In this document: positions 1 to 47,474 of the stretch, piece after piece | How positions within the stretch are numbered: position 1 is the stretch's first letter | Layout: every line of letters starts with the position of its first letter | NCBI RefSeq assembly: GCF_900148505.1 | Contig: NZ_FRXO01000010.1 | Coordinates: 62,001-126,000 of the forward strand | Length of the DNA stretch: 64,000 bases | Origin: Pseudoxanthobacter soli DSM 19599 | GTDB taxonomy: Bacteria > Pseudomonadota > Alphaproteobacteria > Rhizobiales > Segnochrobactraceae | Direction: 5' to 3' | Notes under the pieces: generated by a model | The model's database searches: none | Told to the model about the DNA's origin: nothing | Seen by the model: only the letters and a program-made list of their open reading frames with translations | Program-made: the position numbers and the translations under genes

Positions 1-1035
1 GCAAGCCTGTCGCTCACGGTGCTTGCCGGGCTGTCGCTGTGCGGCTCCGGCGGGCCTGCCGCGGCGGAGGACGGCGAGGTCAACATCTACAGCTATCGTC
101 AGCCGGAGCTGATCCAGCCGCTGCTCGACCGTTTCACCGCCGAGACGGGCATCCGCACCAACGTCGTCACCGCGTCGGCCGGCCTCGAGGAGCGCATCGC
201 CGCCGAGGGCGAGTTCTCGCCCGCCGACATCCTGCTGTCGGTCGATGTCGGCCGGCTGGAGAACGCCAAGGCGCTCGGCATCACCCAGCCCATCGTCTCG
301 CGCGTGGTGAACGAGAACATTCCCGCGATCTACCGCGATCCGGAAGGCGGCTGGGTCGGGCTGACGATGCGTGCCCGCGTGTTCTATGCCTCCCGCGAGC
401 GGGTCAAGGAAACCGCGCTCGATTACGAGGATCTGGTGAAGCCGGAGTGGAAGGGTCGCCTTTGCACCCGCTCCGGCCAGCACGTCTACAATATCGGCCT
501 CATCGCCTCCCTCATCGCCAACGACGGCATGGACGAGGCGGAGAAGATCGTCGCGGGCATCCGCGACAATCTCGCGATGAAGCCGTCCGGCGACGACCGT
601 GCCCAGGCCAAGGCGATCTGGGCCGGCGAATGCGATCTCGCCCTCGGCAACACCTATTATGTCGGGCTGATGGAGACGGACGATCGCGAGCCCGAGCAGA
701 AGGAATGGGCCAAGGCGATCCGCGTGATCTTCCCCAACGAGGGGGGGCGCGGCACCCAGGTCAACATCTCCGGCGTGGTTCTGGCCAAGAACGCGCCGAA
801 CAAGGCCAACGCGCTGAAGCTGATTGAATTCCTCACCTCCGACGAGGCGCAGGAACTCTATGCCGATGCCAATTTCGAATACCCGGTTCGGCCGGGCCTG
901 AAGCCGAACGCGGTGGTGCAGGCGCTCGGCACGCTGAAGCCTGATCCGCTGCCGCTTTCCGAACTCGCGAAATACCGCAAGGCCGCGAGCGAACTCGTCG
1001 ACAAGGTCGATTTCGACGCCGGCCCGTCGCGCTAG
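1..1035 (+). CDS. Fe3+ ABC transporter substrate-binding protein (5' end cut by window)
   Basis: Periplasmic binding protein of the FutA/AfuA ferric-iron family, which captures Fe3+ for an ABC importer. The frame is open to base 1 and the first residues (ASLSLTVLAGLSLCG...AAA) look like the hydrophobic core and cleavage region of a signal peptide, so the true start lies before the window; an internal GTG at 19 is unlikely to be real. The mature part begins EDGEVNIYSYRQPELIQPL, as is usual for this family, and contains GNTYYVGLM, the tandem-tyrosine stretch that supplies iron ligands in relatives. No permease or ATPase gene follows; they may lie upstream. The placement just before the imelysin and oxidase genes suggests a shared role in iron acquisition. 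Family call secure; iron specificity is inferred. Confidence 0.85.
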   Translation, partial: ASLSLTVLAGLSLCGSGGPAAAEDGEVNIYSYRQPELIQPLLDRFTAETGIRTNVVTASAGLEERIAAEGEFSPADILLSVDVGRLENAKALGITQPIVSRVVNENIPAIYRDPEGGWVGLTMRARVFYASRERVKETALDYEDLVKPEWKGRLCTRSGQHVYNIGLIASLIANDGMDEAEKIVAGIRDNLAMKPSGDDRAQAKAIWAGECDLALGNTYYVGLMETDDREPEQKEWAKAIRVIFPNEGGRGTQVNISGVVLAKNAPNKANALKLIEFLTSDEAQELYADANFEYPVRPGLKPNAVVQALGTLKPDPLPLSELAKYRKAASELVDKVDFDAGPSR

Positions 1036-1160
1036 AGCGCTTTCCGATCTGACGGGATCATCAGATCGACCAGAAATCGCTCAAGATTCAATGGCTTGAG
1101 CATGTCCTCGTCGTTCGGATCGGTTCGATCTGAACGGGACATGCTCCAGAGCGCTTTCCG
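1034..1160 (+). repeat. Dispersed palindromic repeat, copy 1
   Basis: Copy of the ~120-bp intergenic element found seven times in the window. It opens with AGAGCGCTTTCCG (1034-1046), overlapping the stop codon of the preceding gene. It carries a first hairpin around GATCTGACGGGATCATCAGATC-like sequence and a second long inverted repeat with arms near GAGCATGTCC and GGACATGCTC. The 13-bp opening sequence recurs at 1148-1160, so this copy is flanked by direct repeats. Confidence 0.85.
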
Positions 1161-1279
1161 TCCGGACCACAGACCCGCCCGGACGGCGGGTGGATGCGGG
1201 ACAGACCGTCATCAACGGGCCTTGGCCAGGGGTGGCCGAGGTTCGCAAGGCAGCGCGAACATCTTGAGGAGGCTGAAAG

Positions 1280-2566
1280 ATGCGCCGTTCGAAACTTCTG
1301 CTCGCCACCGCAGCGGCCTGGGTGGCCGTCTGCGTCGGTCCGGCCCTGGCGGCGGATGCCCCGGCGCCCGACGCGGTCGTCGCCCATTATGCCGACGTGG
1401 CCGCGGCAATGTATGCCGACAGCCTGACGAGCGCCGAGGCGCTCAAGGCCGCCGTCGCCGCCCTCCTCGCCAAGCCGAACGACGAGACCCTCGCCGAGGC
1501 CCGCGCCGCCTGGAAGGCCGCGCGCGTTCCCTACCAGCAGACCGAAGGCCTGCGCTTCGGAAACGCCTATGTCGACGACTGGGAGGGCAAGGTGAACGCC
1601 TGGCCGCTCGACGAGGGGCTGATCGACTATGTCGACAAGAAGTCCTACGGCGAGTCCTCGGACGAGAACCCGCTCTACACCGCCGACGTGATCGCCAACA
1701 CCAAGATCCGCATCGGCGCCGAGGAAGTCGACTTCACCACCATCACCCCGGTGCTGCTGGCCGAGAAGCTGCAGGAAGCCCAGGACGTGGAGGCGAACGT
1801 CGCCACCGGCTATCACGCCATCGAGTTCCTGCTGTGGGGGCAGGACCTCAACGGCACTGGCCCCGGTGCCGGCAACCGCCCGGCAACCGATTACTCGCTT
1901 GAGAATTGCACCAACGGCAACTGCGACCGCCGCCGCGCCTATCTGACCGCGGCGACCGACCTGCTCGTCGCCGATCTCAAGGACATGGCCGACGCCTGGA
2001 AGGCCGATGGCGAGGCGCGCAAGCAGCTTCTCGCCAAGGGGCCGGAGGGCGGGCTCTCCACCATCCTCACCGGCCTCGGCTCGCTGTCCTATGGCGAACT
2101 CGCCGGCGAGCGCATCAAGCTCGGCCTTATCCTCCACGATCCGGAGGAGGAGCACGACTGCTTCTCCGACAACACCCACAACTCGCACTTCTATGACGAG
2201 GTGGGCATGAAGGCGCTCTATACCGGCGCCTACAAGCGCATCGACGGCACCACCCTGGAAGGCCCGGGCCTTCAGGCCTACGCCGCCGCCAAGGCGCCGG
2301 AAGCCGCCAAGCGCCTCGACGCGGCGTTCGACGAGACGCTCGCGCGGATGCAGGTGATGAAGGACCGCGCCGACTCCGGCAAGGAGGCCTACGACCAGAT
2401 GATCGGCCCCGACAATCCGGATGGCAACAAGATCATCGACAACGTGGTCACCGCGCTCGTCGCCCAGACCCGCGCCATCGAGGGCGTGGTGTCCGGCCTC
2501 GGCCTCAAGATCGAGGTGGAAGGCTCGGATTCGCTCGACAATCCGTCGGCCGTCTCCGCCAACTGA
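1280..2566 (+). CDS. Imelysin family (M75) periplasmic iron-regulated protein
   Basis: Imelysin-domain protein of 428 aa related to IrpA and IcmP, periplasmic proteins linked to iron uptake. An N-terminal signal peptide ends near ALAADAPA. The family's GxHxxE motif is present as GYHAIEFLLWG with His179 and Glu182, candidate metal ligands, followed by GQDLNGTGPGAG, typical of the group. The ATG at 1280 is preceded by GAGGAGG at good spacing, which fixes the start. It opens the run imelysin - multicopper oxidase - di-heme protein - imelysin - DUF1513. The family was named for a peptidase, but no proteolytic activity should be assumed. Regulation by iron is likely from family knowledge; no operator was recognised upstream. 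Confidence 0.9.
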   Translation: MRRSKLLLATAAAWVAVCVGPALAADAPAPDAVVAHYADVAAAMYADSLTSAEALKAAVAALLAKPNDETLAEARAAWKAARVPYQQTEGLRFGNAYVDDWEGKVNAWPLDEGLIDYVDKKSYGESSDENPLYTADVIANTKIRIGAEEVDFTTITPVLLAEKLQEAQDVEANVATGYHAIEFLLWGQDLNGTGPGAGNRPATDYSLENCTNGNCDRRRAYLTAATDLLVADLKDMADAWKADGEARKQLLAKGPEGGLSTILTGLGSLSYGELAGERIKLGLILHDPEEEHDCFSDNTHNSHFYDEVGMKALYTGAYKRIDGTTLEGPGLQAYAAAKAPEAAKRLDAAFDETLARMQVMKDRADSGKEAYDQMIGPDNPDGNKIIDNVVTALVAQTRAIEGVVSGLGLKIEVEGSDSLDNPSAVSAN

Positions 2567-2612
2567 CCCGCGAACCGGCCCGGTTCTCCGGGCCGCGTCA
2601 CTCTCAATCGGC

Positions 2613-2634
2613 GGGCGGCCGGCAGCGGCCGCCC
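2613..2634 (+). terminator. Hairpin after first imelysin gene
   Basis: Perfect 9-bp stem (GGGCGGCCG / CGGCCGCCC) with a 4-base loop, 47 bases past the stop codon. It lacks a T-tract, so it may be a pause site or transcript 3'-end stabiliser rather than a true terminator. Confidence 0.3.
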
Positions 2635-2677
2635 GAACCGGTTCCGGGGCCTCGTCCGAATGCGGACGGCGCCCCGC

Positions 2678-2743
2678 TCTAGCTTTTGAATCCGGAGCGA
2701 TTTCTTGTCGATCTGATGATTCCATCAGATCGGAAAGCGCCCT
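2678..2743 (-). repeat. Dispersed palindromic repeat, copy 2 (half copy)
   Basis: Inverted, truncated copy of the ~120-bp element: it retains the TTGAATCCGGAGCGATTTC segment, the hairpin arms GATCTGATG / CATCAGATC and the GGAAAGCGC end, but lacks the second long inverted repeat. It lies 9 bp before the multicopper oxidase ATG. Confidence 0.8.
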
Positions 2744-2752
2744 AGGACGACC

Positions 2753-4252
2753 ATGCGAAAGCCAGCCATGCTCACCCGGCGCGGTTTCACCTTCGGCTTC
2801 GGTGCGCTTGCGGGCGCAGGCGCCATCGGCCTCGCCGCGCCTCGCGTCATCGGGCGGGCGGCGGCCTATTCGGCGACCGAACTGCCGGCGCGGCCGGCCG
2901 GCGCGGGGCCGGAAGGCCGCACCGTCGAGGTCGCGTTCGATGCCGCGCCCTATCGCGGCACCCTGCCGGCATTCGGCGGGGTCGAGGCCGATCTCTGGTC
3001 GTTCGATCGCGCCCAGCCCTTTCCGCCGGTGATCCGCCTTCGCATCGGCGACACCCTGGTCGCGCGGGTGCGCAACCGAATTCCCGTCGGGCAGGAGGAA
3101 CTGACGATCCACTGGCACGGCATCCGCCTGCCGAATGCCGAGGATGGCGTTCCCTACCTGACCCAGCCGCCGATCGCCCCTGGCGCGGACTACACCTATC
3201 GCTTCACGCCGCCGGATACCGGCACCTACTGGTTCCACACCCACTGCAACACAGTGGAATCGATCGGCCGCGGGCTCGTCGGAATCCTCATCGTGGAGGG
3301 GGACGAGACCCGCCCCTATGACGGCGACCACCTTCTGGTGCTGAAGGACTGGCGCATCGGCCCCGATGGCTTTCTGCCGTTCATGACCGACGAGGGCGCG
3401 GCGACCTCCGGCACCTTCGGCACCGTCCGCGCGGTCAACGGCGTGACGAACCCGGAAATCGCCGTCGCGGCCGGTGGCGACGTGCGCCTGCGCATCGTCA
3501 ATGTCGACCCGACCCGCGTCCCGGACATCGGCGTCGAGGGCGCGGAAGCCGCCGTGATCGCGGTGGACGGCGCCGGCATTCCGCCATTCCCGCTGAAATC
3601 GTGGCGGATGGGCCCGGCGATGCGGCTCGACCTCGTCGTCCGCGCGCCGAAACCGGGCGAGGTGGCGCGGATCGTTGACTATTTCGCGCCGCAGCCGGTC
3701 GAACTCGCCCGCCTCGTCGGCACGGGACCGATGCTCGAGCGCGGCGCGTTCGATCCGGCCCCGCTGGTAAAGCCCGTGATCCCGGAGCCGAACCTCGCCG
3801 ACGCCGTGCGGCTGCCGTTCGTGTTCAGCGCCACCGCCGCCGGGCGTGCGGCGGTCGATGCCGTCGGCGACCTGCCGGAAGGCGTGCCGATCGGTCCGCT
3901 CTGCCTGACCGAGCGCACCTTCTGGGCCATCAACAAGGCGCCGTGGCCGAACAAGGGCCATGCCGTGCTGCCCCCGCCGCTCGCCGTGCTGGAGCGCGGC
4001 CGGTCCTATGTGTTCGAACTGCGCAACGTCACCCCGCGCATCCACCCGATCCACATCCACGGCCACACCTTCCGGGTGGTGAAGTCGAACGACGGGCCGG
4101 TCGTTCCCCACTTCGCCGACACCGTGCTGGTGGCGCCGAAGGAGCGGCTGGAAGTCGCCTTCGTCGCCGACAATCCCGGGGACTGGATGTTCCATTGCCA
4201 CATCATCGAACACCAGGAGACCGGCATGATGGGCTATGTGAAGGTCGCGTGA
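2753..4252 (+). CDS. Multicopper oxidase, Tat-exported
   Basis: Three-cupredoxin-domain copper oxidase of 499 aa, related to CopA/CueO/laccase proteins. A twin-arginine signal (MLTRRGFTFGFG, from Met4) indicates folded export to the periplasm. All four copper-binding motifs are intact: H120-W-H122-G, H162-T-H164, H431-P-I-H434-I-H436-G, and H481-C482-H483 through H487 with Met492 as likely axial type 1 ligand, so an active four-copper enzyme is expected. The start may be ATG 2753 or ATG 2768; the latter places the RR motif nearer the N-terminus. Its position between two imelysins suggests ferroxidase activity, Fe2+ to Fe3+ using O2, but the substrate could equally be Cu+ or a phenolic. Confidence 0.9.
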   Translation: MRKPAMLTRRGFTFGFGALAGAGAIGLAAPRVIGRAAAYSATELPARPAGAGPEGRTVEVAFDAAPYRGTLPAFGGVEADLWSFDRAQPFPPVIRLRIGDTLVARVRNRIPVGQEELTIHWHGIRLPNAEDGVPYLTQPPIAPGADYTYRFTPPDTGTYWFHTHCNTVESIGRGLVGILIVEGDETRPYDGDHLLVLKDWRIGPDGFLPFMTDEGAATSGTFGTVRAVNGVTNPEIAVAAGGDVRLRIVNVDPTRVPDIGVEGAEAAVIAVDGAGIPPFPLKSWRMGPAMRLDLVVRAPKPGEVARIVDYFAPQPVELARLVGTGPMLERGAFDPAPLVKPVIPEPNLADAVRLPFVFSATAAGRAAVDAVGDLPEGVPIGPLCLTERTFWAINKAPWPNKGHAVLPPPLAVLERGRSYVFELRNVTPRIHPIHIHGHTFRVVKSNDGPVVPHFADTVLVAPKERLEVAFVADNPGDWMFHCHIIEHQETGMMGYVKVA

Positions 4253-4272
4253 GACGGAGGAGCAGAGCCGGG

Positions 4273-5730
4273 ATGCAGAGCACGGCGTGCAGAGCCGATG
4301 ATGCGGACGTCATGAGCGGTCTGGTCGCGACCGCGGCCGTCCGGCCTGCGCCCGGTTCCGCCCGGGCCACGCGTCCGCGCGCGCCTTCCTCCATCGTCCC
4401 GGGCCGGCGCGCCTTCCGTGCGCTCGGTGCCGGCCTTGCCGCTTTTCTTGCCGCTTTCCTTGCCGCCGCCGCGCCGGTCGCCGCCGGCGGCCTCGATGTC
4501 GTGCTGGGGCAGGCGATCTTCGAACGGATGTGGGTCGCCGGCGGCGCGTCCACCCGCTCGGCGGACGGGCTCGGCCCGCTCTACAACGCCCGCTCGTGTT
4601 CCGGCTGCCATGCCGGCGCCGGGCCGTCCCGCGTCGCACTGGAGGCCGACGGCACCTTGAGCGGACCCGGCCTCGTCGTCCGCCTGTCGACCGAGGCAGG
4701 CGCGCCCGATCCGGTCTACGGCCGCCAGATCCAGCCCCGCGCCGTCCCCGGCCAGACCGCCGAGGCGCGGGTGACCGTGCGGGAGGTGCCGGGCGCCCCG
4801 GGCGATCCCGGCCCGCGCGTCGAGATCGACCTCGACGCCTTCGCCTACGGCCCTCTCGCGTCCGACACGCGCGCGGGCCTCCGCCTCGGCCCCGACCTTG
4901 CCGGCCGCGCCGCCCTCGATCGCATCGACGAGGCCGCGATCCTCGCGCGCGCCGATCCGCAGGACCGCGACGGCGACGGCATCTCCGGCCGGCCGCAATG
5001 GCTCGCGGGACCGGATGGCACGGTCCGCCTCGGCCGGCTCGGCTGGCGGGCGAGCCATGCCGATCTCGCCGATCAGGTCGCGAGCGCCTTCGCCAACGAT
5101 CTCGGCCTGTCGACGCCGATGCGTCCGGATCCCGCCGGCGACTGCACCGCGGCGCAGGCCGATTGCCGCGACGCCCGGCACGGCGACCGGGACGGCTTGA
5201 CCGAGACCGAAGTCACGGCCGAGATGCTCGGCCTGCTCACCGCTTATCTGCAAAGCCTCGACCGGCCGAAGCCGTCGAAGCGCGCGGAGCGGCTCGCCCG
5301 TGCCGAGGCCGCCGGCACGCCGCGCGCGGCGGGCGACGTCACGGCCCTGTCGGGCGAAGCCGCGCTGGCCGAAGGCCAGGCGCTGTTCGCGGCGTCCGGT
5401 TGCTCCGCCTGCCACGTTCCGGCGATGCCGGCGGCAGGCGGCGGAACGGTCGCGGCCTTCACCGATCTCCTGCTCCACGACATGGGCGCGGACCTCGCCG
5501 ATCCCGCCGTGGAGGGCGTCGCGATGCCGTCCGAATGGCGCACCGCGCCGCTCGTCGGCCTGTCGTCGGGCGTGCCCGGTTCGCGGCGTTATCTGCACGA
5601 CGGCCGCGCCGCCTCTGTGGATGAAGCGATCCGCTGGCACGGCGGCGAGGCGGAGCGCGCGCGGAAGGCCTATGAAGCGTTGACGCCGGACGAGCGCTCG
5701 GCCTTGATGGCGTATCTCGGAGACCTGTGA
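4273..5730 (+). CDS. Di-heme c-type oxidoreductase (DUF1111 / thiol oxidoreductase-like)
   Basis: Exported di-heme cytochrome of 485 aa in the DUF1111 group (COG3488, often named thiol oxidoreductase). It has two heme c motifs, CSGCH at 109-113 and CSACH at 377-381, and an N-terminal hydrophobic segment rich in Ala, Phe and Leu at roughly residues 52-73. A Ca-binding-like stretch DRDGDGISG lies in the middle. The ATG at 4273 follows GGAGGAG and was preferred; an in-frame ATG at 4312 is the alternative. It follows the multicopper oxidase by 20 bp and is almost fused to the next imelysin, so the three are probably co-transcribed. Members of this family occur beside imelysins in many proteobacteria; the redox reaction is not established. 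Confidence 0.88.
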   Translation: MQSTACRADDADVMSGLVATAAVRPAPGSARATRPRAPSSIVPGRRAFRALGAGLAAFLAAFLAAAAPVAAGGLDVVLGQAIFERMWVAGGASTRSADGLGPLYNARSCSGCHAGAGPSRVALEADGTLSGPGLVVRLSTEAGAPDPVYGRQIQPRAVPGQTAEARVTVREVPGAPGDPGPRVEIDLDAFAYGPLASDTRAGLRLGPDLAGRAALDRIDEAAILARADPQDRDGDGISGRPQWLAGPDGTVRLGRLGWRASHADLADQVASAFANDLGLSTPMRPDPAGDCTAAQADCRDARHGDRDGLTETEVTAEMLGLLTAYLQSLDRPKPSKRAERLARAEAAGTPRAAGDVTALSGEAALAEGQALFAASGCSACHVPAMPAAGGGTVAAFTDLLLHDMGADLADPAVEGVAMPSEWRTAPLVGLSSGVPGSRRYLHDGRAASVDEAIRWHGGEAERARKAYEALTPDERSALMAYLGDL

Positions 5731-5733
5731 GAC

Positions 5734-6879
5734 ATGCGCGTCGCGACGTTCGCCCTTTTCCTGGCCGGCACGATGGCCGCGGCCGGCACGCTGTCCGTGC
5801 CCGCCCGCGCGGCGGAGGGCAACGTGCCCGCGCCCGCCACCGAGGCGGAAGCGGCACCGCACCAGCGCACCCTCGTCGCCCTCGCCGTCGAGCGCTACAT
5901 CCGTCCCGCATACGCCAACGTCGCCGATGCCGCGAACGGCCTGCGGACCGCCACGGTGCGCTATTGCGCGCAACCCAGTGCCACCAACATGAAGGGGCTC
6001 GAGAACGCCTTCCGCGACACGCTCGTCGCCTGGGGTGGCGTCGATTTCCTGCGCTTCGGCCCCGCCACCACCGACCACCGGCTGGAGCGGATTTCCTTCT
6101 GGCCCGATCCGCGCAATTTCGTCGAGCGGCAGTTGCGCACGCTGCTCGCGTCCCCGGATCTCGACAGCTTCGATCTCGATCGCCTCAAGGGACAGAGCGC
6201 TGCGGTGCAGGGTCTGCCCGCCTTCGAGCGGCTGATGCTGGCACCGGCCAGGGACGGTTCCGAGAAGGTCGATCCCGATTCCGACGCCTTCAGCCGCCGC
6301 TGCCGCCTCGCCGGGCTGATCGCCACCAATATCGGCGACATCGCCGACACCATCCGCGACGCCTGGATCGATCCGGACGGCATCTCCCACCAGATGCTGC
6401 AGCCCGGCCCCGACGATCCGCTCTACCGCACCGAGGCCGAGGCCGCCGACGAGATCCTGAAGGCGCTCCTGACCGGCATCGAGCAGGTGCGCGATCTCGC
6501 CATCACCCCGGCGCTCGGCGCGACGCCGGAAGACGCGCGCCCGCTGCGCTTTCCCTATGTCCGCAGCGGCAACACCCTCGCGCTGATCGCCGCCAACATC
6601 ACCGGGCTTCGGCAACTGATCGAGGCGAGCGGCATCGCCGACAACCTGCGCCCCGAGCAGTCGTGGCTCAGGACCTCGCTGCTGTTCGAACTCGGCAACG
6701 CGGAGCGGGTGCTGAAATCCATCGACGAGCCGCCGATGGAGATGGCGGCGGACCCGAAGAGCCGCGCCAAGCTCAACTATGTCCGCATCACCCTCGGCAG
6801 CATCCGCGACACCATCGCCGGGCCGCTCGCCTCCGCCGTCGGCCTCAATGTCGGGTTCAATGCGCTCGATGGCGATTGA
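5734..6879 (+). CDS. Second imelysin-family periplasmic protein
   Basis: Imelysin-domain protein of 381 aa with a signal peptide ending near ARAAEGN. It starts 3 bp after the di-heme gene stop, so translation is probably coupled. Unlike the first imelysin it lacks the GxHxxE metal site: the aligned position reads G160-L-P-A-F-E165, keeping Gly and Glu but not His. This is the usual form of the second imelysin in imelysin - DUF1111 - imelysin - DUF1513 clusters, so it reflects subfamily divergence rather than damage. Role inferred as partner in iron binding or passage in the periplasm. Confidence 0.88.
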   Translation: MRVATFALFLAGTMAAAGTLSVPARAAEGNVPAPATEAEAAPHQRTLVALAVERYIRPAYANVADAANGLRTATVRYCAQPSATNMKGLENAFRDTLVAWGGVDFLRFGPATTDHRLERISFWPDPRNFVERQLRTLLASPDLDSFDLDRLKGQSAAVQGLPAFERLMLAPARDGSEKVDPDSDAFSRRCRLAGLIATNIGDIADTIRDAWIDPDGISHQMLQPGPDDPLYRTEAEAADEILKALLTGIEQVRDLAITPALGATPEDARPLRFPYVRSGNTLALIAANITGLRQLIEASGIADNLRPEQSWLRTSLLFELGNAERVLKSIDEPPMEMAADPKSRAKLNYVRITLGSIRDTIAGPLASAVGLNVGFNALDGD

Positions 6880-7984
6880 TCGCCGCCGCTTCCTCGGCCT
6901 CGCCGCGGCGCTGCCGCTTGCTGGGTTCACGCCATTCGCCGGGTTGCCGTCGCTCGGCATGGTCGCCCGCGCGGCGGAGGGAGAGCCGCTTTACGCCACC
7001 TGCTGCCGCCTGCCGGACGGCCGCTTCGCGGTGGCGCTGATCGATCTCGAAGGCCGGGTCCATTCCTCGGAAATTCTCGCGGCCCGCGGCCATTCGCTTG
7101 CCGTCGACGGCAGCGGGCGGTGGATCGTCGCCTTCGCCCGCCGGCCCGGCACCTTCGCCGTGGCGCTCGACCGCGAGACCGGCCGCGCCGTCCATGCCTT
7201 CTCCACCCCGGCGGGCCGTCATTTCGAGGGTCACGGCGTGTTCTCGCCGGACGGCCGGCTACTCTACGCCACCGAGAACGCCTACGACGACGGCATCGCG
7301 GTGGTCGGAATCTACGACGCCACGGTCGGATTCGCCCGCGTCGGGGAACTCGACGGCCACGGCATCGGCTCCCACGAACTCCTGCTCGATCCCGACGGCG
7401 AGACGCTGATCGTCGCCAACGGCGGCATCTACACCCATCCGGACTATCCCCGCGCCAATCTCGACCTCGCCGCGATGGAACCGTCGCTGGTGCGTATCGA
7501 CCGCCGCACCGGCGATCTCCGCGACAAGGCCGAACCGCCCGGCGACCTCCGCCAGCTCAGCATGCGCCACATGGCGGTGGACGGCGCCGGCCGCACCTGG
7601 ATCGGCTGCCAGTGGTGGGGCGACAAGGCCGAGGCGGTGCCGCTGGTCGCGGTCCACGAGGCCGGCAAGCCGCTGCAGTTCGTCGAGATGACGGCACATC
7701 AGCGCCTCAGCCTCGGGCAATATATCGGCTCGGTCGCCGCCAACGTCGCGGGCGACCGCATCGTGCTCGCGAGCCCGGTCGGCAGCACGGTCATGGTGTT
7801 CGACACCGCGACGCGCGCGATCATCGAGAGCCGTGACCTCACGGATGGCTGCGGCGCGGCGCCGGCCCCCGAATCCGGCTTCGTGCTCACGAGCGGGGAG
7901 GGCGCGGTGATCGTCGAGCGCGACGGGGCGGAGACGCGCCATGACAGCGACATCTCCTGGGACAATCATATCCGCCGTCTCTGA
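6869..7984 (+). CDS. DUF1513 beta-propeller protein, Tat-exported
   Basis: DUF1513 family protein of 371 aa. The N-terminus carries a twin-arginine signal, DRRRFLGLAAALPLAGF, and the remainder has propeller-like repeats such as HGVFSPDGRLLYATE and LLDPDGETLIVANGG. The start overlaps the end of the preceding imelysin gene: ATG 6869 is chosen, ATG 6860 three codons upstream is possible. This is the last gene of the iron locus; a repeat copy follows. The biochemical role of DUF1513 is unknown; the consistent association with imelysins and DUF1111 proteins argues for a part in the same periplasmic iron process. Confidence 0.88.
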   Translation: MAIDRRRFLGLAAALPLAGFTPFAGLPSLGMVARAAEGEPLYATCCRLPDGRFAVALIDLEGRVHSSEILAARGHSLAVDGSGRWIVAFARRPGTFAVALDRETGRAVHAFSTPAGRHFEGHGVFSPDGRLLYATENAYDDGIAVVGIYDATVGFARVGELDGHGIGSHELLLDPDGETLIVANGGIYTHPDYPRANLDLAAMEPSLVRIDRRTGDLRDKAEPPGDLRQLSMRHMAVDGAGRTWIGCQWWGDKAEAVPLVAVHEAGKPLQFVEMTAHQRLSLGQYIGSVAANVAGDRIVLASPVGSTVMVFDTATRAIIESRDLTDGCGAAPAPESGFVLTSGEGAVIVERDGAETRHDSDISWDNHIRRL

Positions 7985-8036
7985 GCGCCGGCCGGCCGGG
8001 TCGAGCCGCCGTCGAGCGGCGGCCGTCGTGGCCCGT

Positions 8037-8158
8037 TAGAGCGCTTTCCGATCTGATGGAATCATCAGATCGACCAGAAATCGCTCCAGATTCAAAAGCT
8101 TGAGCATATCCTTGTCGTTCAGATCGATCCGATCTGAACGACAAGGATATGCTCAAGC
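8037..8158 (+). repeat. Dispersed palindromic repeat, copy 3 (best preserved)
   Basis: Near-complete element. The first hairpin is GATCTGATG / CATCAGATC. The second is a perfect 26-bp inverted repeat: left arm 8101-8126, loop ATC, right arm 8130-8155. It lies 22 bp before the Nudix gene start and is open in that gene's frame, so a naive start at 8100 would add a repeat-encoded N-terminus (MSISLSFRS...). Confidence 0.9.
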
Positions 8159-47356: not shown

Positions 47357-47474
47357 TAGAGCGCTTTCCGATCTGATGGAATCATCAGATCGACGAGAAA
47401 TCGCTCCAGATTCAAAAGCTTGAGCATATCCTTGTCGTTCAGATCGGCTCGATCTGAACGGGTTATGCTCCAGG
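47357..47474 (+). repeat. Dispersed palindromic repeat, copy 6
   Basis: Full-length copy between the convergent lpxB and gltA genes. First hairpin GATCTGATG / CATCAGATC; second arms GAGCATATCCTTGTCGTTC and GAACGGGTTATGCTC, the right arm partly diverged. Confidence 0.88.

Follow-up and report, generated by a model that had tools for sequence, protein, structure and literature searches.

Introduction

What does a multicopper oxidase (MCO) do in the middle of a periplasmic iron cluster? This question is raised by a stretch of 64,000 nucleotides from Pseudoxanthobacter soli DSM 19599 (contig NZ_FRXO01000010.1, positions 62,001 to 126,000; the whole stretch is called the window here), in which six genes at positions 1-7984 encode a ferric-binding protein (FutA), a first imelysin, an MCO, a DUF1111 di-haem protein, a second imelysin and a DUF1513 protein. 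The PA4370-PA4373 operon of Pseudomonas aeruginosa, which contains two imelysins and a DUF1111 protein, is regulated by Fur (PMC3143127). An ICMP-type imelysin with the GxHxxE motif, a DUF1111 protein and an IPPA-type imelysin occur here in the order required of that type, and by its gene content and sequences the present cluster is an MCO-bearing form of the PA4370-PA4373-type imelysin iron cluster. Our literature search for an MCO together with an imelysin cluster gave no description of such a form, which suggests that the variant is apparently undescribed.

Conservation and inheritance of the oxidase

Scanning the MCO against 84,980 species genomes has yielded 80 loci, and in most of those that reach about 50% identity the MCO gene has imelysin 1 on one side and DUF1111 on the other, followed by imelysin 2 and DUF1513. 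The MCO-bearing form occurs in many alphaproteobacterial genera besides the present one; the taxa include Kaistia, Prosthecomicrobium, Propylenella, Faunimonas, Microvirga, Azospirillum, Hyphomicrobium, Parvibaculaceae and others, and the position of the MCO is the same in the 43 loci that were fully read, which include many from Rhizobiales and all those found in Azospirillum. For GC-rich relatives, genes were called by codon-position GC; picking the longest open reading frame (ORF) was misleading there. With DUF1513 as the reverse anchor, the gene was found in 126 genomes of the order out of 249, and 60 DUF1513 places spread over the genera were taken, 58 of them with imelysin 1 and DUF1513. 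The MCO is present in ten of these 58 clusters, always at the same place, and absent from 48; a survey at class level, covering 385 genomes, contributed six further MCO-bearing clusters. An earlier note on this DNA had proposed such a survey and had named absence of the oxidase here in close relatives as evidence against its reading. Since dozens of genomes keep the oxidase at this position, as a constant member of the cluster, that objection fails.

The presence of the MCO is closely tied to the type of its di-haem neighbor. In the DUF1111 tree, a branch with support 100 separates all 33 MCO-bearing rows, joined by a single MCO-free row (L115), from the rest, and presence of the MCO requires 2 changes on this tree against 25.8 in shuffles. 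The corresponding numbers are 2 for imelysin 1, 5 for imelysin 2 and 7 for DUF1513, and the distances of the MCO correlate with those of its four neighbors at 0.81-0.90. The DUF1111 proteins of MCO-bearing clusters have no N-terminal extension and, in most lineages, also lack an internal segment of the MCO-free type; two CxxCH motifs are kept in both subtypes. Because the MCO-bearing rows form a single clade and their DUF1111 lacks the extension, the oxidase and the di-haem subtype go together. The DUF1111 of L115 is of the short, MCO-bearing type though its cluster has no MCO (one nested loss), and its genome contains only distant MCOs, about 30% identical; by its place in the tree, L115 is a cluster that lost its MCO.

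Since both forms are found within several families (f2, f16, f23 and f29), the MCO-bearing form is probably an old lineage that has spread in part by gene transfer. The earlier note had called the oxidase inserted; its position was given rightly, whereas the gene trees show a distinct lineage of MCO-bearing clusters and not a recent insertion here. Chance insertion was also considered and was rejected in view of the conserved position.

Proteins of the cluster

The six genes are all on the plus strand and have strong Pfam matches. Several readings made earlier from the letters are borne out: the single-strand cluster, a true Fe3+-binding protein, an imelysin motif, a Tat-exported MCO with all copper ligands, a di-haem protein, and no permease among the genes of window positions 1-7984. 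Coordinates needed revision in two places, the start of DUF1513 being 6869, where it overlaps the stop of imelysin 2, and that of DUF1111 being 4273 or later.

The MCO gene (2753..4252, Pfam Cu-oxidase_3/_2) encodes a protein with a Tat signal and an invariant twin Arg. Its type 1, 2 and 3 (T1, T2, T3) copper ligands are complete, comprising ten His, the Cys and the axial Met, which vary little or not at all among relatives, and a cupredoxin fold extends along the full length in sequence and model, as is proper to a three-domain MCO. The solved structures closest to the model are those of two Pseudomonas MCOs, from P. thermotolerans and P. parafulva (6vow and 6vox; Z 49.9 and 44.6), at an identity of about 40%, the likeness being one of structure; the model is also near CueO (Z 36-39) and laccases. 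No Met cluster was found anywhere in the MCO, and hence nothing like the Met-rich insert in domain 3 that marks CueO as a cuprous oxidase. Four residues, C165, C384, W284 and W398, are invariant in the subfamily of cluster MCOs and missing in the majority of other MCOs; of 47 MCOs outside the cluster, 11 have them too, and some of these nest among the cluster members. It is possible, from the sequences, that the invariant Cys are joined in a disulphide beside a ligand of the trinuclear copper site. Outside the cluster, one MCO relative (L037) adjoins a P-type ATPase, and a member of the same subfamily in a betaproteobacterial metagenome-assembled genome (L016:7065-9455) adjoins a c-type cytochrome gene.

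The DUF1111 gene downstream (4273..5730, start uncertain; PF06537, 1.8e-41) encodes a DHOR-type protein with two CxxCH, assigned to the short subtype by alignment and tree. Imelysin 1 (1280..2566; PF09375, 4.6e-85) is of ICMP/PA4370 type, with a Sec-type signal and without a lipobox; it matches ICMP 7xrx at 6.1e-119, and GxHxxE is found in imelysin 1 of all 91 clusters. Imelysin 2 (5734..6879; PF09375, 1.3e-37) is of IPPA/PA4372 type and matches IPPA 3pf0 at 2e-12; as in IPPA, Pro replaces the motif His (GLPAFE), and GxHxxE is found in none of the 91 clusters. FutA (1..1035, Pfam SBP_bac_6) has its 5' end outside the window, its ORF beginning about 131 bases before base 1. It matches the solved FbpA structures 1q35 (phmmer, 9.4e-98) and 1y9u over the full length, and the tyrosines of its NTYY motif, the ligands of this fold, are conserved.

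The DUF1513 gene (6869..7984; PF07433, 4.3e-101) encodes a protein with a Tat-type signal, for which our literature search found nothing relevant. It is modelled (mean pLDDT 88) as a seven-bladed beta-propeller whose best fold matches are generic YVTN propellers (Z 31.6); two kinds of copper enzymes, nitrous oxide reductases (28.5, 1fwx) and a thiocyanate dehydrogenase (27.1), are also among the matches. Because generic propellers lead the list, a metal site cannot be argued from resemblance of fold alone. His 76, 123, 170, 235 and 368 do not vary in any of the 91 cluster sequences, each 3 or 4 residues before a strand end at the equivalent place of its own blade, and C329 (95%) occupies the matching position on a sixth blade. 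This ring of five His is predicted to be a likely metal site within the channel of the propeller.

In many relatives a protein of about 165 amino acids with a C(R)DEC motif and no Pfam match is encoded directly 5' of imelysin 1 on the same strand. It was seen at L012:5836-6531, L130:7751-8407, L134:4668-5240 and about 24 other loci, MCO-bearing and MCO-free alike, and is absent from the cluster of the window.

Regulation and repeats

Sites of iron-type regulation have been found mainly in relatives. For ICE, the generally known full consensus was used. In 12 Azospirillum loci, a Fur-box-like GAGAATGATTC lies about 80-100 bases before imelysin 1; since these are close relatives, the shared site counts as one event. 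Several MCO-free relatives have ICE-type sites like TTAGANNNNTCTAA, several MCO-free clusters have sites such as TTTAGAACTGTTCTAA that fit the Irr/ICE type, and one MCO-bearing locus (L022) carries a variant whose gap is shorter. Irr and ICE are treated in PMC3413700 and PMC7540006, where TTCTAA is given as part of an ICE. In the genome of the window, no Fur, ICE or TGA-N9-TCA site was found directly before imelysin 1. A 13-mer, AATAGAATAATTT, occurs upstream of FutA both here and in the sister genus (G002), and a related degenerate ICE-like element, TAGAANNNTT, precedes the FutA of the window, a second FutA gene (FutA2) and EfeU, the last with two such elements upstream. The link to iron drawn in the earlier note thus stands as far as iron-type operator sequences in relatives are concerned; here there is a degenerate candidate before FutA and none before imelysin 1.

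A palindromic repeat, with a 22-base core in 46 genome copies (reversed control 0), is found in the gap between FutA and imelysin 1 (1035..1150), as a reversed copy on the minus strand between imelysin 1 and the MCO (2680..2745), and 3' of DUF1513 at the end of the cluster (8040..8157); another copy is at 47370-47394. From its sequence, it may be a terminator or processing site. Because the repeat separates both FutA from imelysin 1 and imelysin 1 from the MCO, the cluster is not one tight operon in this genome.

Inner-membrane partner

The earlier note had suggested looking upstream of base 1 for genes of fbpB/fbpC type; none was recognised among the ORFs within 12 kb. A permease conserved within MCO-bearing clusters was not found in most lineages either. 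In Kaistia-type genomes (L127:9806-10840 and L009-L013), a gene for an ABC-3 family metal transporter permease is divergent from the MCO-bearing cluster.

FutA is found within a few kb of the cluster in the window, in G002 (77% identical, 94 bp before imelysin 1, without repeats), and in L018, L104 and L130; in L018 and L130 a gene for FbpB is also present on the strand of the cluster, in L018 immediately 5' of imelysin 1. Since FutA and FbpB recur near the cluster in other lineages, they are candidates for the inner-membrane partner, and by gene neighborhood a FutABC importer is the best candidate, though most MCO-bearing clusters have none adjacent. FutA and FbpB are each represented by two close genes in the genome of the window. 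One FbpB-type permease (C2:590254-591861) has no FutA within 5 kb and is a possible partner of the FutA of the window; the second candidate, at C2:150 kb, has its own FutA.

Role of the oxidase

We propose that the periplasmic MCO would oxidise Fe2+ to Fe3+ with O2 and without production of H2O2, that imelysin 1 would bind iron through its GxHxxE motif, and that Fe3+ would pass via imelysin 1 to FutA, which would deliver it to a permease of FbpB type whose gene lies elsewhere. In redox or transfer, help would come from the di-haem protein, from imelysin 2 and from the propeller of DUF1513, and expression of the cluster would be controlled by iron. Read from sequence, this pathway of O2-driven oxidation seems to us evenly balanced between right and wrong. 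In its favor stand the conserved place and co-inheritance of the MCO, the FutA and FbpB genes near some clusters, the iron-type operator sequences and the lack of a Met-rich insert like that of CueO. Several observations weigh against it. T427 stands four residues before the first T1 His of the MCO, at the place of an Asp which we take to be a ferroxidase feature of Fet3p and CueO; with Thr there, the assignment of the MCO to iron therefore rests on context. Of about 93 clusters, only a few have FutA next to them, and the repeats between the genes may break co-transcription. The pattern shared by the ICE-like elements of this genome, WAGAANNNTTNNA, occurs 34 times in 5.16 Mb, and four of these occurrences precede the three iron operons (FutA, FutA2 and EfeU); since it was made from these very sites and its reversed control is commoner (67 places against 34), the elements are no more than suggestive of iron-type operators.

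The same gene order could be read in other ways. If the MCO were a cuprous oxidase or general laccase that guards periplasmic iron proteins from Cu+, its link to iron would be an indirect one of copper tolerance. The closeness of its fold to CueO and laccases and the P-type ATPase beside L037 fit this explanation, but the Met-rich insert is missing, the MCO has a fixed place within an iron cluster with iron-type operators, and a copper-resistance context was looked for and rejected, no copper-resistance genes being recognised around MCO-bearing clusters; we consider this role unlikely. Equally improbable in our judgment is an electron relay, in which the di-haem protein is re-oxidised by O2 through the MCO, the short subtype depending on the oxidase and the long one using H2O2 or another partner. 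Its strength is that the MCO tracks the DUF1111 subtype almost perfectly, and the cytochrome neighbor in L016 agrees with it. Imelysin 1 is co-inherited equally well, however, and therefore the link of the MCO need not be with DUF1111; moreover, L115 has the short subtype without an MCO in its cluster.

It is much less probable that the MCO makes or loads the metal center of a partner, such as the His ring of DUF1513, and does not act on free iron. The five invariant His and the resemblance to the copper propellers of nitrous oxide reductase and thiocyanate dehydrogenase would suit such a task, but the ring is equally invariant in the 48 MCO-free clusters, and so the MCO is not generally needed for it. 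That the MCO is a passenger gene, there by chance, we find scarcely credible: its patchiness within the four mixed families would be explained, but not its same position in 43 of 43 loci together with co-inheritance.

Beyond O2-driven iron oxidation by the MCO itself, we tentatively suggest a wider picture, which is more doubtful than that pathway. Imelysin, DUF1111 and DUF1513 might form a periplasmic metal-oxidation complex with a poly-His site in the DUF1513 channel; the alphaproteobacterial MCO would partner a shortened di-haem subunit, and O2-driven oxidation of iron would end in a ferric ABC importer and not in an Ftr1 permease. Imelysin/DUF1111 iron clusters are widespread, and a variant that adds an O2-consuming copper oxidase and an altered di-haem subunit points to oxidation as the step of the cluster, which this variant makes testable by a ferroxidase assay. 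The association with FutA and FbpB offers a concrete inner-membrane candidate, and the predicted His ring is a first functional handle on DUF1513.

Comparison with known systems

Four systems can be compared with this cluster. The EfeUOB locus of the same genome (C4:250-257 kb, L006:7909-12276) encodes FTR1, a DyP peroxidase, and cupredoxin-M75 and M75-only proteins; it resembles the present cluster in its imelysin domain, haem peroxidase and proposed periplasmic redox step for iron, but its FTR1 permease and DyP peroxidase have no counterpart here, no FTR1 permease being found within window positions 1-8000. With FutABC/FbpABC the cluster has FutA in common, and FbpB lies near it in L018 and L130, whereas FutA stands alone in the cluster of the window. 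In the Fet3p-Ftr1p system of yeast, a multicopper oxidase takes part in iron uptake (PMC9174327), as is proposed here; the cluster has no Ftr1 permease, and a ferric ABC importer is suggested in its place. The closest counterpart is PA4370-PA4373 of P. aeruginosa, with which the first three protein types and their order are shared. The fourth gene here is DUF1513, and only here is an MCO placed between the ICMP-type imelysin and a DUF1111 protein, which is short, while imelysin 1 is without a lipobox and FutA is adjacent.

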